From Alphaproteobacteria bacterium (lineage in GTDB: Bacteria; Pseudomonadota; Alphaproteobacteria; CAAHEQ01; UBA3637), in the NCBI GenBank assembly GCA_028696805.1, contig JAQVGI010000008.1, forward strand, positions 1 through 40,482: a stretch of 40,482 nucleotides of DNA, written 5' to 3'. Made by a program: the position numbers and the translations under genes. This document shows positions 2,259-20,499 of the stretch, piece after piece. Under the pieces are notes generated by a model. It saw nothing but the letters and a program-made list of their open reading frames with translations. It did not search any database and had not been told where the DNA came from. The first letter of the stretch is position 1, and every line of letters begins with the position of its first letter.

Positions 2259-4292
2259 TCAGCCCTTGATGACTTTTTTGGTGATCTTCATCGTGGCCTT
2301 TCCGCCTTTCTGGGCGAGGCCGCCCGACCCCTGCGCGACGCCCGTCGCCGCGCCGGAAGCCGTGCCGTCGTAAACGCCGCTGACGCCGGCGAAATCCCGG
2401 ACGATTTTGGATCCGGCGCGGACGACCTTGATGCCGAAAATCGCCATCGCGGTGACGAACATGAAGATGAAGAACCCGCTGCCGGTATTGTTGCCGGACA
2501 CGATGTCATAGAGGTTCGGCGTGTAATTGTTCGTGCGGGGGGCCAGGACAGCCTGTATCAGCGCGTCGCTGCCGGCGGGGATGATCGCGTTGAACAGCGC
2601 CAGCAGGAACCCCATGCCGATGGCGAGGCCCAGCAGCCCGACCAGCGTGTTCAAAAACAGGTTCCACGCATGGATCGTATATTGGCGGCTGATCGGAAAG
2701 GCGAACGCGGCGATCCAGAACGGCGTCAGCACGACGACGAACCCCAGATTCAAGAACAGGTCGATCAGATCGAACGCGACGAAGCAGGCCAGGATCGTGA
2801 ACGTGATTACCAGCGCCGCCCCCAGCAGGAACATCCCGATGGGCCGCGGAAAAATGCCGAAGTTGATCAGCGGCAGCGCGATTCCCGTCCTGTTCGCCCA
2901 CGCATAGGAAACCATCGACTGCCCGATCGCGCGCCAGGGGCTGGTCTGCTTGTAGATTTTGCACGACGTGCAGAGCAGCGACGCCTTCGCCGCGTTGTCC
3001 AGGAACACGACGGAGGCCGCGTCCCCGGGAGACAGCGCCGTCCGCCCGCCCGTCCGCGCCCGCGAAACATATTCCAGCTTCGCCGCGTCGCAGTAATTGT
3101 CGCAGTTCTTCAATTCGGCCAGCTGCTGCTGGTCGGCGAGCGTCGCGGATCCGCCGGCGTCGGCGATGGCGACGATTTTGTTCGTCAGGTTCATCGTGAT
3201 GCCGATGAAGGGGGAGACCACCGTTTCGAAAAAATCGGCGATCGGCGCCTGCAGGAATATCGCCATCATGATCACGGCGATCAGGCGGGTCATCAGCTCC
3301 TGCAGGAAGGAGGTGCCGCCGTCGCCGATCTTCTTCGTGAACCACAGGGTGAACTTGACGACGATCCAGAACAGGAATCCGATCAGCATCACGCTCAACG
3401 CCATGTTGCGGATCGTCGTTTCGGTATAGTAGGTCAGCTTTTCGATGGATGTGATCAGCAGCAGGATCAGGTTGCACGGCCAGCACGAGCCCTGCTCTTC
3501 GGTCAGGATTTGCCGGACGGTCCGGATTTTGGAGGAAGCGTTGAGCTGGCGCCACTGCTCCACCTTGCGGATGAAGCCGTTGGCGCAGTCGCACGAATCC
3601 CGCACATTGGCCTGCTCGTTCGCCGACAGCAGGTCGCATTTGGCCAGCACGGCCTGCGCGACGATGATCGTGTTGGCGTCCGGCTCGCCCTTGCCGCGCG
3701 GGTCGAACTGGTCGCGGGCCGAGCAGGTCTGGCCGCCGTATTGCGTGATTTCGGATGTGATCTGGTTCAAGAGCTGGGAGCCCTGGGTGCTGGCGAGGCT
3801 TGCCGTCGGGATGGTGGCGGCGGGCGCGGAGCTTTGGGCGAGCTTGTCCAGCATACCCCGGTCATGCGATGCCGCGCCGCGGCCCGTGATGCTCGGCCAG
3901 TATTTGTCGTCGCCGGTCTGTGCCTGGCTTGTCCCCGGCTGCGCGTCCGTCGGCTTCAAAGAACTTATCTTATCCAGCGTTCCCGCGTCGTGCGTCTGCG
4001 TGCGGGTCTTGATGTCCTCCCAGAACTTGTCGTCCATGGTCTGCGCCTGCGCCGCCGCGCCGATGCCGACGAAAACGAACAGCATGCAGAAAAAGAAAGC
4101 GCGGCGGTGCTTCCACAGGTAATGCCCGATGAAGCCCAGCAGCGCGGCGATGCCGGCGCCGACGATAAGCATCAGGACAAAAACCGCCCCTTGTATTTTC
4201 GGGCTTTGCCATGCGTCGGGCAGGAACGACAGCCCGATGATTATCAGAGCGAGCAGGGCGGTTTGCATCAAAATTCCGAGGAGGCGCGTCAT
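2259..4292 (-). CDS. VirB6/TrbL-like membrane protein 1 with duplicated N-terminal motif
   Basis: 677 residues. The N-terminus has two membrane segments (about 5-25, 34-57) and a third hydrophobic stretch (66-84) ending AAAQAQ, which looks like a signal-peptidase site. Then comes a duplicated unit: DDKFW at 87 with HDAGTLDK at 101, and DDKYW at 128 with HDRGMLDK at 143. A Cys-rich region precedes CWPC (270-273), and six or so membrane spans follow to about 630, matching the polytopic core of VirB6/TrbL, the inner-membrane channel of type IV secretion. The basic C-terminus is probably cytoplasmic. The ATG overlaps the stop of the gene at 4289-5566 by 4 bases (ATGA), so translation is coupled. 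The VirB6 call rests on topology, tandem arrangement and overall pattern. Confidence 0.7.
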   Translation of the reverse strand: MTRLLGILMQTALLALIIIGLSFLPDAWQSPKIQGAVFVLMLIVGAGIAALLGFIGHYLWKHRRAFFFCMLFVFVGIGAAAQAQTMDDKFWEDIKTRTQTHDAGTLDKISSLKPTDAQPGTSQAQTGDDKYWPSITGRGAASHDRGMLDKLAQSSAPAATIPTASLASTQGSQLLNQITSEITQYGGQTCSARDQFDPRGKGEPDANTIIVAQAVLAKCDLLSANEQANVRDSCDCANGFIRKVEQWRQLNASSKIRTVRQILTEEQGSCWPCNLILLLITSIEKLTYYTETTIRNMALSVMLIGFLFWIVVKFTLWFTKKIGDGGTSFLQELMTRLIAVIMMAIFLQAPIADFFETVVSPFIGITMNLTNKIVAIADAGGSATLADQQQLAELKNCDNYCDAAKLEYVSRARTGGRTALSPGDAASVVFLDNAAKASLLCTSCKIYKQTSPWRAIGQSMVSYAWANRTGIALPLINFGIFPRPIGMFLLGAALVITFTILACFVAFDLIDLFLNLGFVVVLTPFWIAAFAFPISRQYTIHAWNLFLNTLVGLLGLAIGMGFLLALFNAIIPAGSDALIQAVLAPRTNNYTPNLYDIVSGNNTGSGFFIFMFVTAMAIFGIKVVRAGSKIVRDFAGVSGVYDGTASGAATGVAQGSGGLAQKGGKATMKITKKVIKG

Positions 4293-5566
4293 TTTTTATC
4301 CGCCCCCGTCGCCTGGCTGGCCAGGTCTTCGGCGCCGCTGGCCATCATCCGGCTGCCGACGCCTGCGCCGACGCCGGTGGCCGCCATCGCCGCGCCCGCG
4401 ACGACCCGGACGCCCGACTTGATCGCCCGCACCATGCCGGTCAGGCTGGATGTCGCGCCGCCGCCGCCGAACTTTCCGGATATCTTCGGAATGTTGTATG
4501 TCAGGCGGTTGAAGACGAACAGCAGGAACAGGAAGGCGATGAAGGTGTTGCTCATGTTGTTCACGTCCTTGGCCAGCTGGGAATCCGTCGTGTGCCGCGT
4601 CGCGCTGAGCAGGCCGGGCGAGAACTGGTCGGTGTAGGCGACGATGACGGAGATCACCAGCCCGATGAATATGCAGGTGAACAGGACGTCGAACATGGAC
4701 ACCAGGACGCCCTTGATGATGACGCCGATCGGCCTTTTCAGAAAGTCGTTCGGAAAGACCCAGCCGACCAGCGCCAGCGGCGTCAAAATCAGCAGGCATC
4801 CGAGCCGCACGAACGAATCCGCGAACAGCAGCGGCAGGATCAGCGACATGACGAAGAACATATAGATGACATACAGCCCGATGAAGAACCCGAACACGCC
4901 GGTGTCGACCATGACCGAAATGCCCAGCCCCGTCCCGGCGCGCAGCAGGACGAACAGGCGGTAGATAATGTCCTGAATGTAAATCGGCGTGTCGCCCAGC
5001 AGCGAATTGGAAGCCTGCGCGTTCATCGAAATACCGGTCGCGCCGACGCTGATCAGCCCGTTGATGGTTTCGGGCGAACGCATGTATTGCGCGATGCTTT
5101 CGTCCGTGGTCAGGAATGTCCGCGACACATCCGTGAACATCAGCAGGACGGGCTGGACGAACGCCTCGCCGAGGAGGGAGATGAACAGCTGCGCGTTGGA
5201 CAGGAAGGCCGCCACGATGATCGCCTTGCCCAGCGTGACCATCAGCGCGCTGATGAATTCATGGACGTCCGGGGTCTTGAAGGAGCCGGCGAACTTGATC
5301 ACCCGGAATGCCAGCCAGAACAGCAGCCCGACGCCCAGAAACACGAGGGAGGCCTCCGCCACCATCGTGATCGTCGCTTCCAGCGTCTTGTCGATCGCCT
5401 GCAATACGACGCCGTATATCGCGCACGGCCAGCAATTTTCGATGCGGTTGGTCCAATCGGCGGCGTTGTATTGCGGCGCCATGTTGCAGCCGGATACCAG
5501 CAGCGTCCCGAGGACGACGACGCAGGCTTTCCATAAGCTGCCGAATATGTTCCGCGGACGCCTCAT
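4289..5566 (-). CDS. VirB6/TrbL-like membrane protein 2, probable lipoprotein
   Basis: 425 residues. Residues 1-27 form a lipoprotein signal: basic MRRPR, a hydrophobic core and the lipobox LVSGC with Cys27. CWPC follows at 45-48 and leads straight into a long amphipathic/membrane helix, as in the two neighbours. Six or more membrane spans follow to about residue 375; the Gly/Ala-rich basic tail is probably cytoplasmic. Known family: VirB6/TrbL inner-membrane subunits of type IV secretion; a lipobox is not a usual feature. It starts 6 bases after the stop of the gene at 5573 and overlaps the next by 4, so the three genes form one operon. It is the shortest and lacks both the N-terminal duplication and the long tail. 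Confidence 0.7.
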   Translation of the reverse strand: MRRPRNIFGSLWKACVVVLGTLLVSGCNMAPQYNAADWTNRIENCWPCAIYGVVLQAIDKTLEATITMVAEASLVFLGVGLLFWLAFRVIKFAGSFKTPDVHEFISALMVTLGKAIIVAAFLSNAQLFISLLGEAFVQPVLLMFTDVSRTFLTTDESIAQYMRSPETINGLISVGATGISMNAQASNSLLGDTPIYIQDIIYRLFVLLRAGTGLGISVMVDTGVFGFFIGLYVIYMFFVMSLILPLLFADSFVRLGCLLILTPLALVGWVFPNDFLKRPIGVIIKGVLVSMFDVLFTCIFIGLVISVIVAYTDQFSPGLLSATRHTTDSQLAKDVNNMSNTFIAFLFLLFVFNRLTYNIPKISGKFGGGGATSSLTGMVRAIKSGVRVVAGAAMAATGVGAGVGSRMMASGAEDLASQATGADKK

Positions 5567-5572
5567 CGTTTC

Positions 5573-7852
5573 TCAAGGTCCTTTTTTCGGAAGGCCGCCG
5601 GAGCCTGCGCGCTCCAGCATTTCGCCCATCGTGTCCATGCGGTTGTTGCCGAAATGGTCGCGCGTGTCGTCGTCCTTGGACATCATGCGCTGTCCCTTGG
5701 CGTTGAAGCGGATGTCCGAAATGCCCTCGTTGTTGAAGTTCCGGACGAGTTTCGAGTTGTCCGCGTTGGTCGTGACGACCTGATTCAGGTTGCGCTGGGC
5801 GTCATACGCGAACGTCGCCGTCGTCGTGCCTGTCGCCGTGCCGGTCGAATCGAACGTGTCCGTCTGTTCGCGCGTGGACTGCCATTTGTTCGTCGCGGCG
5901 TTGATGCTGCCGGTCGCGACGGCGCGCGAGGCGATAGTGATGCCGTCGGCGTGGAAGTTTTCCGTGACGCGCTGGCCGGTGGCATTGATGTCCTGGTGGT
6001 ATATCAGCCGGCCGCTGGCCGTGTCCCGCCGCTCGATCTTGTTGCCGAGTTTCGTTTCCGTCGTTCCGTTGGTATTATTCTGCGTATAACCGCGCGGGTT
6101 ATAGGTGCGCGTGCCGATGACATTGCCGTGCGCGTCCTTGATTTCGGACATGTTGCCCAATGTGTTCGTTCCCGGAACGTATGACCTGAACTCCTTCTGC
6201 ATGAGGCCGGTTTTCGCGTCGTAGGTCTCGGTGATCTCCTGCTTGACGCCGGCGGCGTTTTCCGCGTCGTATGTCGCGGTCATGCCGGTGTCGGTCGTCT
6301 GGAACTTCTTCTCTATCTTGTCGCGCGGATCGATGGCCGCGAACTTGCCGTCGTGCGCCGTTTTCCGCGCCGCCGCGAACGCCTGGTTCCGGCCGGTGTC
6401 TCCGCCCTGGAAGCCGGCCGCCCGCGCCACGCGCGCCGCAGTCGCCTTAACGCCGAAGGTGTTTTTGGCCGCGCTTCGGGTCACCTGGGCGGCGTGCTTC
6501 GCGTGCTCGCCGATATGCGTGTATTTTTCGTCCAGCTTCTTGACGCCCTTGGCCGCGACCTTGGCGGCCGGCTTGACGATGCGCTGGGTGGCGTTGACCG
6601 CGCCGCTGACAGCCGTCTTGTTCATGCCCAGCTCCATGCCGCCGCCGCCGAAAGATTGCGCCAAAGACTGCGCGGATCCGAGCATGCTGAACGACAGCCA
6701 GCCCATCGCCATCGTGATGAACAGGCTTTTGCCGCTGAACCCGATGAGATCCGCGGCCGGCCCCGATCGGCCTTCCAGCAGCAGTTGGAACAGCTGCTCG
6801 CGGTTGGGAATCGCCGAGTTCATCGCGACGATCACGAACGATATCACGACCGACAGGCACAGGAACAAGATGATGCTGCCGATGAATTTATCCCAGGCTT
6901 TCTTGGTGTAGCCGGATGTCTGCGGAAAAACCCACAGGACGATCCAAAACGGCATCAGAGCCAACACGAACCCCAGCCCGATGATGGCGTCAAACAGCTT
7001 GAACGGAAAAGACAGGAAGAGGGCGAAGAAGCTGAACCAGACCGCGAGGCCGATCAGCAGCATCGAAAAATTGGGAATCCCCCACGATCCGGCCGTCAGC
7101 GAGGCCTTCATCAGCGTCGCGCCGGTCGCCATGCCGACGCCGAGCGACGAGCTGACCGTTCCCATCCAGCAGAGGATGGAGTTGATTTCCCTACCGGTCA
7201 AAGCGCTTTTGTCCAGCTGGGCGTAATCGGCGTTCTGCATCCGGAACGGGCAGCTGTCGGGATCCAGCCCGGACGCCGCCTTCGACGATCCGCTACCGGG
7301 CGCGGCCGCGCCTGCGGCGGCGGCGTTGGCGATCGCCTGCGGATCCTGTCCGGCCTGGATGATCTGCATCGTCGTCGAATCCATTGTCGATTGCAGGATG
7401 CGGGTGGACAAATCCATCCCGATGTCCAGGATGGGATTGAGCAGGGATGCGAACACGACGATCATGTATTTGCCCCCCTCGAATAGCAGAATGCTTGCGA
7501 TGATGCCGCGCCCCAGCGGGCCGGTCAATTCCGGAATCAGGGCGCCTATGTCCACCGCCTGGAAAGAAACGAGGAATTTGCCGATTTTGAAAACGAGGAA
7601 AAACAGCAATCCGACGGACAGCAAGACCAAAAGCGGCCCCGACAATCCCGTCACGGTGTATTTCGTCAGGCTGTTGACGGAAAGCAGGATGGCCTGGAAA
7701 ACGGGGCAGAACCAGCAGATGCTGCTGCCGTCCGTCGCGCCGAAGTAATCGTTCAGCGTTTCTTGGAACTTGGCGTCCTGCGCCCCGGCGGCGGCGGAAA
7801 AGAACAGCGCGATGCACAACAGGACAAGCGCGATCCATTTTTTGGAAATCAT
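5573..7852 (-). CDS. VirB6/TrbL-like membrane protein 3 with YD/Rhs-like C-terminal extension
   Basis: 759 residues. I take the ATG at 7852 because GAAAGGA lies at proper distance; an ATG at 7861 abuts that site. Residues 1-24 are a signal peptide (ends AAAGAQ). CWFC is at 46-49, then a polytopic core (about 55-400) with PFWIVLWVFP matching PFWIAAFAFP in protein 1. A basic linker (420-515) follows. Residues about 520-740 carry irregular repeats in the style of Rhs/YD proteins: YDAKTG, DAHGNVIGTRTYNPRG, FAYDAQRNLNQV. Rickettsiales VirB6 paralogs are known for large extensions, though not with this repeat as far as I know. First gene of the operon. Confidence 0.75.
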   Translation of the reverse strand: MISKKWIALVLLCIALFFSAAAGAQDAKFQETLNDYFGATDGSSICWFCPVFQAILLSVNSLTKYTVTGLSGPLLVLLSVGLLFFLVFKIGKFLVSFQAVDIGALIPELTGPLGRGIIASILLFEGGKYMIVVFASLLNPILDIGMDLSTRILQSTMDSTTMQIIQAGQDPQAIANAAAAGAAAPGSGSSKAASGLDPDSCPFRMQNADYAQLDKSALTGREINSILCWMGTVSSSLGVGMATGATLMKASLTAGSWGIPNFSMLLIGLAVWFSFFALFLSFPFKLFDAIIGLGFVLALMPFWIVLWVFPQTSGYTKKAWDKFIGSIILFLCLSVVISFVIVAMNSAIPNREQLFQLLLEGRSGPAADLIGFSGKSLFITMAMGWLSFSMLGSAQSLAQSFGGGGMELGMNKTAVSGAVNATQRIVKPAAKVAAKGVKKLDEKYTHIGEHAKHAAQVTRSAAKNTFGVKATAARVARAAGFQGGDTGRNQAFAAARKTAHDGKFAAIDPRDKIEKKFQTTDTGMTATYDAENAAGVKQEITETYDAKTGLMQKEFRSYVPGTNTLGNMSEIKDAHGNVIGTRTYNPRGYTQNNTNGTTETKLGNKIERRDTASGRLIYHQDINATGQRVTENFHADGITIASRAVATGSINAATNKWQSTREQTDTFDSTGTATGTTTATFAYDAQRNLNQVVTTNADNSKLVRNFNNEGISDIRFNAKGQRMMSKDDDTRDHFGNNRMDTMGEMLERAGSGGLPKKGP

Positions 7853-7882
7853 CGGAATCATCCTTTCGGTCGAATTGGAGTC

Positions 7883-19152: not shown

Positions 19153-20247
19153 TCACTTCCCGTGCAGCAGGCGCCATAACCTCCATTTATGTTTCAGCTT
19201 CAATCCCTTGTAAGAAATACGCTTCTGCGCATACAATTCCCGCAGGCGGTGGCCGGCGTGCAGCCACAATTTTTCTTGCTCCGGTTCAGGGGATCTGCGG
19301 ATGTGGTTAAAAATCATTTTGACGCGGATGTTGAGGATATGCTTTTGAATATTCGGCAAGTCCGCGGGGCGGTTCCGCCGAATGTAATCATAAATGGCGT
19401 TGATGGCCGTCATATAGCTGTCCGTTTTTGAGTTGCTCCATACAGACCGCATCGTTGAAGCCGGATTGATGTGATAAAAGTAGAGCCCTTTGTCCACCAG
19501 GGCATATTTTCCAATTTTTGACATAAGCTCGACAGCCGACGGCAAATCTTCGAACGCAATCCCTTCGATAAACTTTATATTTTGTATCGTCCGTCTTCGA
19601 TACAGCCGCGCGCAAGGCATAACGGGCAGCCGATTTTTCATAAGCGATTCGAGCGGATTATCAACTATTTTAATCGGATACCTCATGATCGCCGGTACAA
19701 TCGGCGCGTAAGGACGATCGGTCTTTTCCAACGCACAGGCCGCAACGTCAACGCCCGCCGCCGACAGGACATTCAGCAGAATCTCGAACATTTGCGGATG
19801 AATGTAGTCATCCGCATCCACAAAGGAAATGACATCCCCTGTCGCGTGTTTGAATCCGGTGTTGCGGGCGCCGCCGGCTTTCAGGTTTTTTTGATAGACG
19901 ACCCGGAACCGCTTGTCCTTTTTTGCAAATGCCTCCGCCAGTTTTCCGGAAGCGTCCGGAGACCCGTCGTCGACGCAAATGCATTCGAAATTGCGATACG
20001 TCGACGCAGCAATGCTGCGCAGGCAGCCATCGATATGCTTCTCGACATTCCACATCGGCACAATGACGGATATTTTCGTTCGAGGTATTTTCGTTTCGCG
20101 ATGCCCCTCGTAATGGATAGCCAGCCATTTGATAAGCAAAAGCAGGCCTTCCTTCGGCAAATGGCTCAAAGCCCGCAAGTCTTGCGTTGCCAGAAAATCA
20201 TCCCAATAATTCTTTATTTCATAGGAATCTTCCAGCTCCGTCCCCAT
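19153..20247 (-). CDS. Family 2 glycosyltransferase
   Basis: 364 residues from the ATG at 20247, which has GAGGGG six bases upstream; the ATG at 20253 abuts that site. The GT-A fold spans about residues 55-270: ISVIVPMWNVEKHIDGCLRS, then CVDDGS, AGGARNTGF, and the metal-binding DADD in ISFVDADDYIHPQ. These inverting enzymes move a sugar from a nucleotide donor to a surface polysaccharide or lipid. The basic C-terminus (about 280-364) has no membrane span but may bind membrane. Base composition is more AT-rich than the neighbours, suggesting later acquisition. The RNA gene just upstream ends in a terminator, so it may need read-through or regulated antitermination. Confidence 0.88.
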   Translation of the reverse strand: MGTELEDSYEIKNYWDDFLATQDLRALSHLPKEGLLLLIKWLAIHYEGHRETKIPRTKISVIVPMWNVEKHIDGCLRSIAASTYRNFECICVDDGSPDASGKLAEAFAKKDKRFRVVYQKNLKAGGARNTGFKHATGDVISFVDADDYIHPQMFEILLNVLSAAGVDVAACALEKTDRPYAPIVPAIMRYPIKIVDNPLESLMKNRLPVMPCARLYRRRTIQNIKFIEGIAFEDLPSAVELMSKIGKYALVDKGLYFYHINPASTMRSVWSNSKTDSYMTAINAIYDYIRRNRPADLPNIQKHILNIRVKMIFNHIRRSPEPEQEKLWLHAGHRLRELYAQKRISYKGLKLKHKWRLWRLLHGK

Positions 20248-20270
20248 GGCCATCCCCTCGTTTCTTCCAT

Positions 20271-20301
20271 AAAAATAAAGTCGCCGTGATGAATGGCGAC
20301 T
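20271..20301 (-). terminator. Intrinsic terminator of the orphan RNA
   Basis: Leftward AGTCGCC pairs with GGCGACT (7 bp, 9-base loop), followed by TTATTTTT. Its T run lies only on the leftward side, which fixes the strand of the RNA. Confidence 0.85.
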
Positions 20302-20464
20302 GGAGTTAGAAACCTACATCGAAAGAAGTAGTGCGGTATATTCACCGCAATGGCTTATTTTACCGCCATCCAGTCATAGACCGGTAGGCAAGTAAATAAC
20401 GTTTTTACTAAACGCTTTCGATATGAGGGTTTCTAAACCTCAAGGCGGTCATCACTCCGCTTTG
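20271..20464 (-). ncRNA. Orphan structured RNA of about 195 nt
   Basis: No protein fits here. A promoter (20499-20471) and an intrinsic terminator (20301-20271) bracket a branched fold. Read leftward: a 5' hairpin (20466-20457 with 20448-20439, 9 of 10 paired). Then a long-range closing stem in two parts, 20436-20428 with 20314-20306 (9 bp) and 20422-20415 with 20325-20318 (8 bp). Inside are three hairpins: 20409-20404/20396-20391, 20389-20379/20375-20365 with a small internal loop, and 20349-20344/20337-20332. I tried 6S, tmRNA, RNase P, SRP RNA and common riboswitches and none fits by eye. It could also be a leader that controls the glycosyltransferase. Confidence 0.7.
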
Positions 20465-20470
20465 AGGATA

Positions 20471-20499
20471 AGTCTACCCCAACAAAAAACGAATTGCAA
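20471..20499 (-). promoter_or_regulatory. Promoter of the orphan RNA
   Basis: Leftward TTGCAA, 17 bases, TAGACT. The spacing matches the other promoters of the window and predicts a start near 20464, just at the 5' hairpin. Confidence 0.75.

Follow-up and report, generated by a model that had tools for sequence, protein, structure and literature searches.

The minus strand of nucleotides 20271–20468 of the window, i.e. the whole 40,482-nucleotide stretch of DNA analysed here, is predicted to encode a 5′ leader RNA that acts in cis, probably by transcription attenuation, and appears to belong to an Xcc1/C4-like superfamily as a divergent branch domesticated by its hosts (probability about 0.7). 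The structure of the RNA is conserved, its copies lie in leader position before genes and it is homologous to sRNA-Xcc1. In phage relatives one strand of the RNA is complementary to the Shine-Dalgarno (SD) region of the downstream gene, a match which is absent from the branch found in gut bacteria. The promoter, the elements of the RNA and the downstream gene are located as follows:

20471–20499, minus strand: promoter TTGCAA-17-TAGACT (−35 at 20494–20499, 17-nt spacer, −10 at 20471–20476), from sequence and enrichment
20271–20468, minus strand: whole leader RNA, about 195 nt (fold z −8; match to covariance model R1 at 20276–20468, 161.7 bits)
20438–20468, minus strand: P1, 5′ hairpin with loop AGUGAUGA at 20449–20456 (fold and covariation)
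20425–20441, minus strand: P2, hairpin GAGG...CCUC, the loop of which, UUUAGAAA (20430–20437), makes PK-A (covariation)
20415–20423, minus strand: 5′ strand of P3, UAUCGAAAG, b1 position (covariation)
20400–20414, minus strand: P4, hairpin (75.4 % paired, two-sided changes present)
20369–20375, minus strand: 5′ strand of PK-B, GACUGGA (99.3 % paired, 41 copies)
20333–20366, minus strand: P6, GCGGU (20362–20366) with ACCGC (20333–20337, a position counted by hand on the sequence); 99.5 % paired, two-sided changes in 4 of 5 pairs
20317–20325, minus strand: 3′ strand of P3, CUUUCGAUG, b′ position (covariation)
20306–20312, minus strand: 3′ strand of PK-A, a′ position (82.6 % of cells paired, two-sided changes in 6 of 7 pairs)
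20298–20304, minus strand: 3′ strand of PK-B, UCCAGUC (covariation; overlap with P8 from sequence)
20279–20301, minus strand: P8, predicted terminator hairpin, with loop UUCAUCAC (20286–20293) kissing the P1 loop (98 % paired)
20271–20279, minus strand: U run UUUAUUUUU, T-rich at the equivalent place in 112 of 121 gut copies
19153–20253, minus strand: family 2 glycosyltransferase, the putative regulated gene (Pfam Glycos_transf_2, E 5.8e-36)

The predicted folding energy of the minus-strand RNA (20271–20470) was −74.3 kcal/mol, compared with −44.0 ± 3.8 for 200 dinucleotide shuffles (z −8). The plus strand of the region was equally stable (−78.7, z −8.2), so that energy alone cannot set the strand. 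The minus strand was assigned because the promoter, the U run (20279–20271), the same-strand downstream gene and the homologs all favour it, in agreement with the earlier assignment from the one-sided T run, and a plus-strand RNA was rejected despite its equal stability. The promoter that had been proposed on the minus strand was recovered, and the promoter-like score directly upstream of 108 copies of the RNA was 8.8, compared with 7.06 in upstream control windows. The U run ends approximately 23 nt before the glycosyltransferase start, an ATG at 20253; a second ATG, 6 nt further on, is a better fit to the GAGGGG SD sequence. Elsewhere in the window (2259–7861, minus strand) three adjacent large membrane proteins look, by eye, similar to TrbL/VirB6-type secretion components.

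Pairing was counted on a MAFFT alignment built without structural guidance. For the 56 proposed pairs, 81.8 % of the cells contained standard pairs, compared with 37.7–44.0 % when the partners were slid, a control which preserves relatedness. Cells with changes on both sides numbered 357, compared with 145 in shuffles, a control inflated by related sequences. The structure was partly read by eye from the aligned sequences and is therefore favoured over its slid versions, so that more weight falls on the two-sided changes. Compensatory changes occurred in all but a few pairs, and P6, PK-B and P8 were paired in 98–99.5 % of cells. The comparative analysis supports P1, P2, a long-range P3, P6, P8 with its U run, two pseudoknots and a kissing loop between P1 and P8, and disagrees with the minimum free energy fold in the inner domain. 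The kissing pairs were formed in 74.7 % of cells, with two-sided changes in 6 of 6 pairs, and P1 and P8 loops of the same copy matched better (5.74) than loops swapped between copies (4.92 ± 0.09); in a distant alphaproteobacterial set the score was weakly above the control (5.05 compared with 4.65 ± 0.21, n = 20).

P2 overlaps the foot of P1 in the window copy. P6 encloses a conserved internal loop, AAAAUAA/GAAUAU, and a small hairpin, P6b. The 5′ strand of PK-B has an alternative local pairing with CCGGUC (P5, 20370–20384), and four bases, AGUC, are common to the 3′ strand of PK-B and the foot of P8; the overlap and the competition with P5 are possible exclusive pairings of a terminator and an antiterminator. 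An additional pairing, PK-C, between the P4 loop (20404–20410) and the strand that follows (20391–20396) scored 4.36 compared with 4.07 ± 0.08 in the control, using crude windows, and is a tentative candidate. The 5′ hairpin, the two-part long-range stem (here PK-A and P3) and the terminator stem of the initial annotation are upheld by these comparative data. Its three inner hairpins stand only in part, as P6 replaces one local hairpin; the P1–P8 kissing loop, P2 and PK-B (ACUGGA with UCCAGU) had been missed.

The RNA had been described as an orphan, which does not hold, as the genome of the window (958 kb, 44 contigs) contains three copies, the other two preceding a lipoprotein-like gene and a gene for a small secreted-type protein. 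Copies were found with blastn in 16 of the 57 genomes searched. A covariance model trained on 41 copies (R1) had matches in every one of the 13 genera searched in the family of the window organism and in 39 of the 43 genomes; the highest count was 46 copies, in a genome of about 1.1 Mb. In a sample of 289 genomes from the whole class, 27 contained the RNA. The stems covary, and with no Rfam hit to the window copy neither of the refuting outcomes named in the initial annotation was observed. The named contigs with the RNA are from uncultured Alphaproteobacteria, chiefly from gut and rumen samples, and several copies lie at contig ends. The gut core pattern had no match in viral contigs.

Among the 98 gut copies with enough flanking sequence, 72 are followed within 60 nt by an SD sequence and a gene start (ORFs of at least 50 amino acids), compared with 2 of 98 for the mirrored upstream flank, and the median gap between RNA and gene is 26 nt. 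The downstream genes have no common pathway. A survey of Pfam types found outer-membrane barrels in 19 of 75, together with opacity and surface-antigen types and some glycosyltransferases; pilin-like proteins (GRSMVEMLG...) and lipoproteins were recognized by eye. Some gene families are kept with the RNA across genera, for example a TTLTRQE lipoprotein and the family 2 glycosyltransferase. In one pair of divergent copies (locus L136, 6548–6745 on the minus and 6903–7099 on the plus strand), approximately 160 nt apart, each copy precedes a different gene. Not every copy is a leader, as a genome of another family (G053) contains two tandem copies approximately 120 nt apart (L097, 1216–1672, minus strand) with no ORF close downstream; there the RNA may be a gene in its own right.

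In genome G019 approximately 200 nt separates the RNA from a pilin-like gene, a spacer which could hold another promoter, and the similarity between copies runs on into the pilin-like genes, as if they had arisen by duplication within a gene family. At L335–L350 and related G019 loci, the stretch from 0 to about 240 nt past the RNA contains a conserved module, with the palindrome AAACGTACGTTT and a small ORF that is likewise conserved (MQYQ...), possibly a second control element or a leader peptide. A literature search for leader RNAs on pilin genes of gut Alphaproteobacteria found nothing relevant.

Searches of Rfam, at the curated threshold and at E values up to 10, gave only chance matches for the window copy, which bears out the initial annotation in that no known family was recognized; a distant relation to sRNA-Xcc1 (RF02221) had escaped it. 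Twelve further loci matched no Rfam family, and the riboswitch families of Rfam did not match the RNA. RF02221, with a gathering cut-off of 53 bits, did not match the window copy even at E values up to 10 and had no match in the window genome. Eight distant alphaproteobacterial loci were matched by both R1 and RF02221 in a constant register (offset about 93–109 nt), two of them above the RF02221 cut-off, and a gut-type copy from the family of the window organism (L181), before a pilin-like gene, matched RF02221 with E 2.1e-4. The core order PK-B, P6, PK-A′, PK-B′ is in register between the two models. RF02221 covers 87 nt, and the sequence upstream of it in distant and phage loci holds strands of P2, PK-A, P3 and P4; phage copies align with the whole of R1, though with weak scores (E 0.015–0.26). 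By these sequence relationships the window RNA is a relative of sRNA-Xcc1, and is not filed as a member.

The Xcc1-type core was common in viral contigs among the matches listed. The 54 downstream phage proteins matched Phage_pRha (13), P22_AR_C (11), KilA-N (10), ORF6N (7), AntA (6), Bro-N (6) and P22_AR_N (4), counts which overlap because one protein may match several families. In 78–82 phage-type loci the b′ strand matched its own SD region with a score of 7.55, compared with 5.35 ± 0.12 when swapped. The internal matches at these loci were also above control, 8.16 compared with 6.11 for b1 with b′ and 7.13 compared with 5.71 for a1 with a′, and a weaker match was seen between a′ and a2 (5.73 compared with 5.24). 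This corresponds to the layout of C4 RNA, a leader-encoded RNA with a′ and b′ strands complementary to its targets, b′ lying over the ribosome-binding site (PMC5320573). The C4 model RF01695 had no match in the window, in ten distant loci or in seven phage-type loci.

At the phage-type loci (L215–L294 and L185–L214) the Rfam sRNA-Xcc1 model covers 87 of about 200 nt, apparently the 3′ half of a C4-like leader that extends beyond the model and precedes antirepressor genes of the phages. sRNA-Xcc1 has been detected as a discrete RNA of about 100 nt on Northern blots and mapped to 88 nt (PMC2996969). The mapped RNA would presumably have been processed from such a leader, and its 5′ end is suggestive of cleavage by RNase P. 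The literature consulted treats sRNA-Xcc1 as a virulence-linked trans-acting sRNA; it has also been placed upstream of symE in a cassette study (PMC12444791), and RF02221 is among the well-covered transcripts of E. coli O157:H7 (PMC5331693). A literature search for Xcc1 together with antirepressor found no paper joining both.

In the gut branch the 3′ strand of P3 (b′) did not match its own SD region (5.505 compared with 5.498 when swapped, n = 99), and an anti-SD role for this strand was rejected. A T run follows the P4 hairpin in 68 of 82 phage copies but in 15 of 121 gut copies; after PK-B it is rare in phage copies (5 of 82), and at the 3′ end of gut copies it is the rule (112 of 121). The different place of the T run and the absent anti-SD match, with P1 and the kissing loop present, suggest that control in the gut branch has been relocated from SD masking to a 3′ terminator.

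In G019, 27 copies are near-identical in P1, P8, PK-B′ and P6 and variable in PK-A, P3 and the P4/P5 spacer, with 24 distinct combinations of PK-A and P3. Complementarity to the own strand was 7.56 for P3 and 6.0 for PK-A, compared with 3.18 and 3.35 to other copies. Genome G061 repeats the pattern, and six PK-A/P3 combinations are common to both species. Structure-only drift could account for part of the variation, since the P4/P5 spacer varies too; a specificity role, which is unproven, is favoured by the occurrence of the same combinations in two species and by how diverse they are in a single genome. At two G019 loci near contig ends (L028 and L044) the 5′ and 3′ strands of P3 and PK-A mismatch each other and match other paralogs; these may be recombinants or assembly chimeras. 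It is conceivable, if rather doubtful, that PK-A and P3 give each leader a private address and that the terminated or processed RNA acts in trans on siblings with the same address. Dozens of near-identical surface-protein genes would then be regulated individually or in a mutually exclusive manner, by a bacterial RNA-address system derived from phage immunity RNA.

A stand-alone trans-acting sRNA, of about 195 nt or processed to about 100 nt, would act through its variable a′ and b′ strands, with the proximity to genes secondary. Its own promoter and strong predicted terminator, the differences in a′ and b′ among near-identical paralogs, the discrete sRNA-Xcc1 on Northern blots and the L097 copies lacking a downstream gene are consistent with such an RNA, but the directional association with genes and the short gap, which leaves little space for a second promoter, make it unlikely. 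Somewhat less probable again is a new riboswitch, in which a small molecule bound at the internal loop of P6 would choose between terminator and readthrough. The many copies per genome, the pseudoknotted fold, the terminator platform and the invariant internal loop would suit a riboswitch; the absence of a common pathway among the downstream genes argues against it, the kinship to phage antisense leaders explains the fold without a ligand, and the loop could be invariant because it makes a tertiary contact.

A dispersed repeat or mobile element with no regulatory role is suggested by the high copy number in such small genomes and by the copies at contig ends, but is highly improbable. It was disfavoured because orientation and distance to gene starts are fixed, a promoter lies upstream, compensatory changes are found, the similarity extending into pilin-like genes in G019 looks like gene-family duplication, and the gut core has no match in viral contigs.

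The preferred reading, a cis-acting attenuator, agrees with what was found at the locus, namely an own promoter, a predicted intrinsic terminator and a same-strand gene close downstream; the suggestion in the initial annotation that the RNA attenuates the glycosyltransferase is thus strongly supported. RNA polymerase would start at the promoter (20499–20471) and make a pseudoknotted, loop-kissed RNA before meeting the intrinsic terminator P8. We infer termination at P8 and the direction of regulation: the glycosyltransferase would be expressed only if transcription passes P8. The bases shared by PK-B and the foot of P8 could provide a switch between two conformations. In the phage branch the upstream a1 and b1 strands would pair with the internal a′ and b′; b′ is also complementary to the antirepressor gene's SD region, as is, weakly, a′. 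Evolution would presumably have run from phage to host, an RNA controlling phage antirepressors being domesticated in the gut branch with a terminator at its 3′ end and mostly cell-surface genes behind it.

The family of structured RNAs described here is a large one, and its gut members have no match in Rfam 15. Almost every genome of one gut lineage carries it, some of them dozens of times. Through it, host surface proteins are connected with an RNA by which phages control antirepressors. It also suggests a concrete function for sRNA-Xcc1, the phage copies of which precede antirepressor genes and have complementarity to the SD of these genes. As P3 and PK-A vary like addresses, the idea that paralogous surface genes are controlled one by one through RNA can be tested directly.

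Compared with known systems, the RNA resembles terminator-type attenuators and riboswitches in the succession of promoter, structured leader, intrinsic terminator and gene, and differs from them in the P1–P8 kissing, in its paralog-specific helices and in lying outside the Rfam riboswitch classes. It shares with sRNA-Xcc1 the order PK-B, P6, PK-A′, the AAUA-flanked internal loop, the upstream P2, P3 and P4 strands and the position before genes, whereas the RF02221 model is restricted to 87 nt of the 3′ half and the window copy falls below it. In the phage sRNA-Xcc1 type P4 is followed by a U run and one strand is complementary to the SD, and there is, unlike in the gut type, no 3′ terminator; no P1–P8 kissing loop was seen in it by eye. 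The phage branch shares with the C4 antisense RNA of P1 and P7 (RF01695) its regulatory layout on antirepressor operons (PMC5320573), but neither its sequence nor its structure matches C4 models, and the gut branch is without the anti-SD match. The Group 1 C4-like sRNAs of Acinetobacter baumannii belong to a different Rfam family and are reported as sRNAs, whereas the window type consists of gene leaders with a kissing-loop terminator; in both, many copies of a C4-type RNA with variable specificity loops are found per genome, and a phage RNA appears to have been taken up by the host (PMC5320573).
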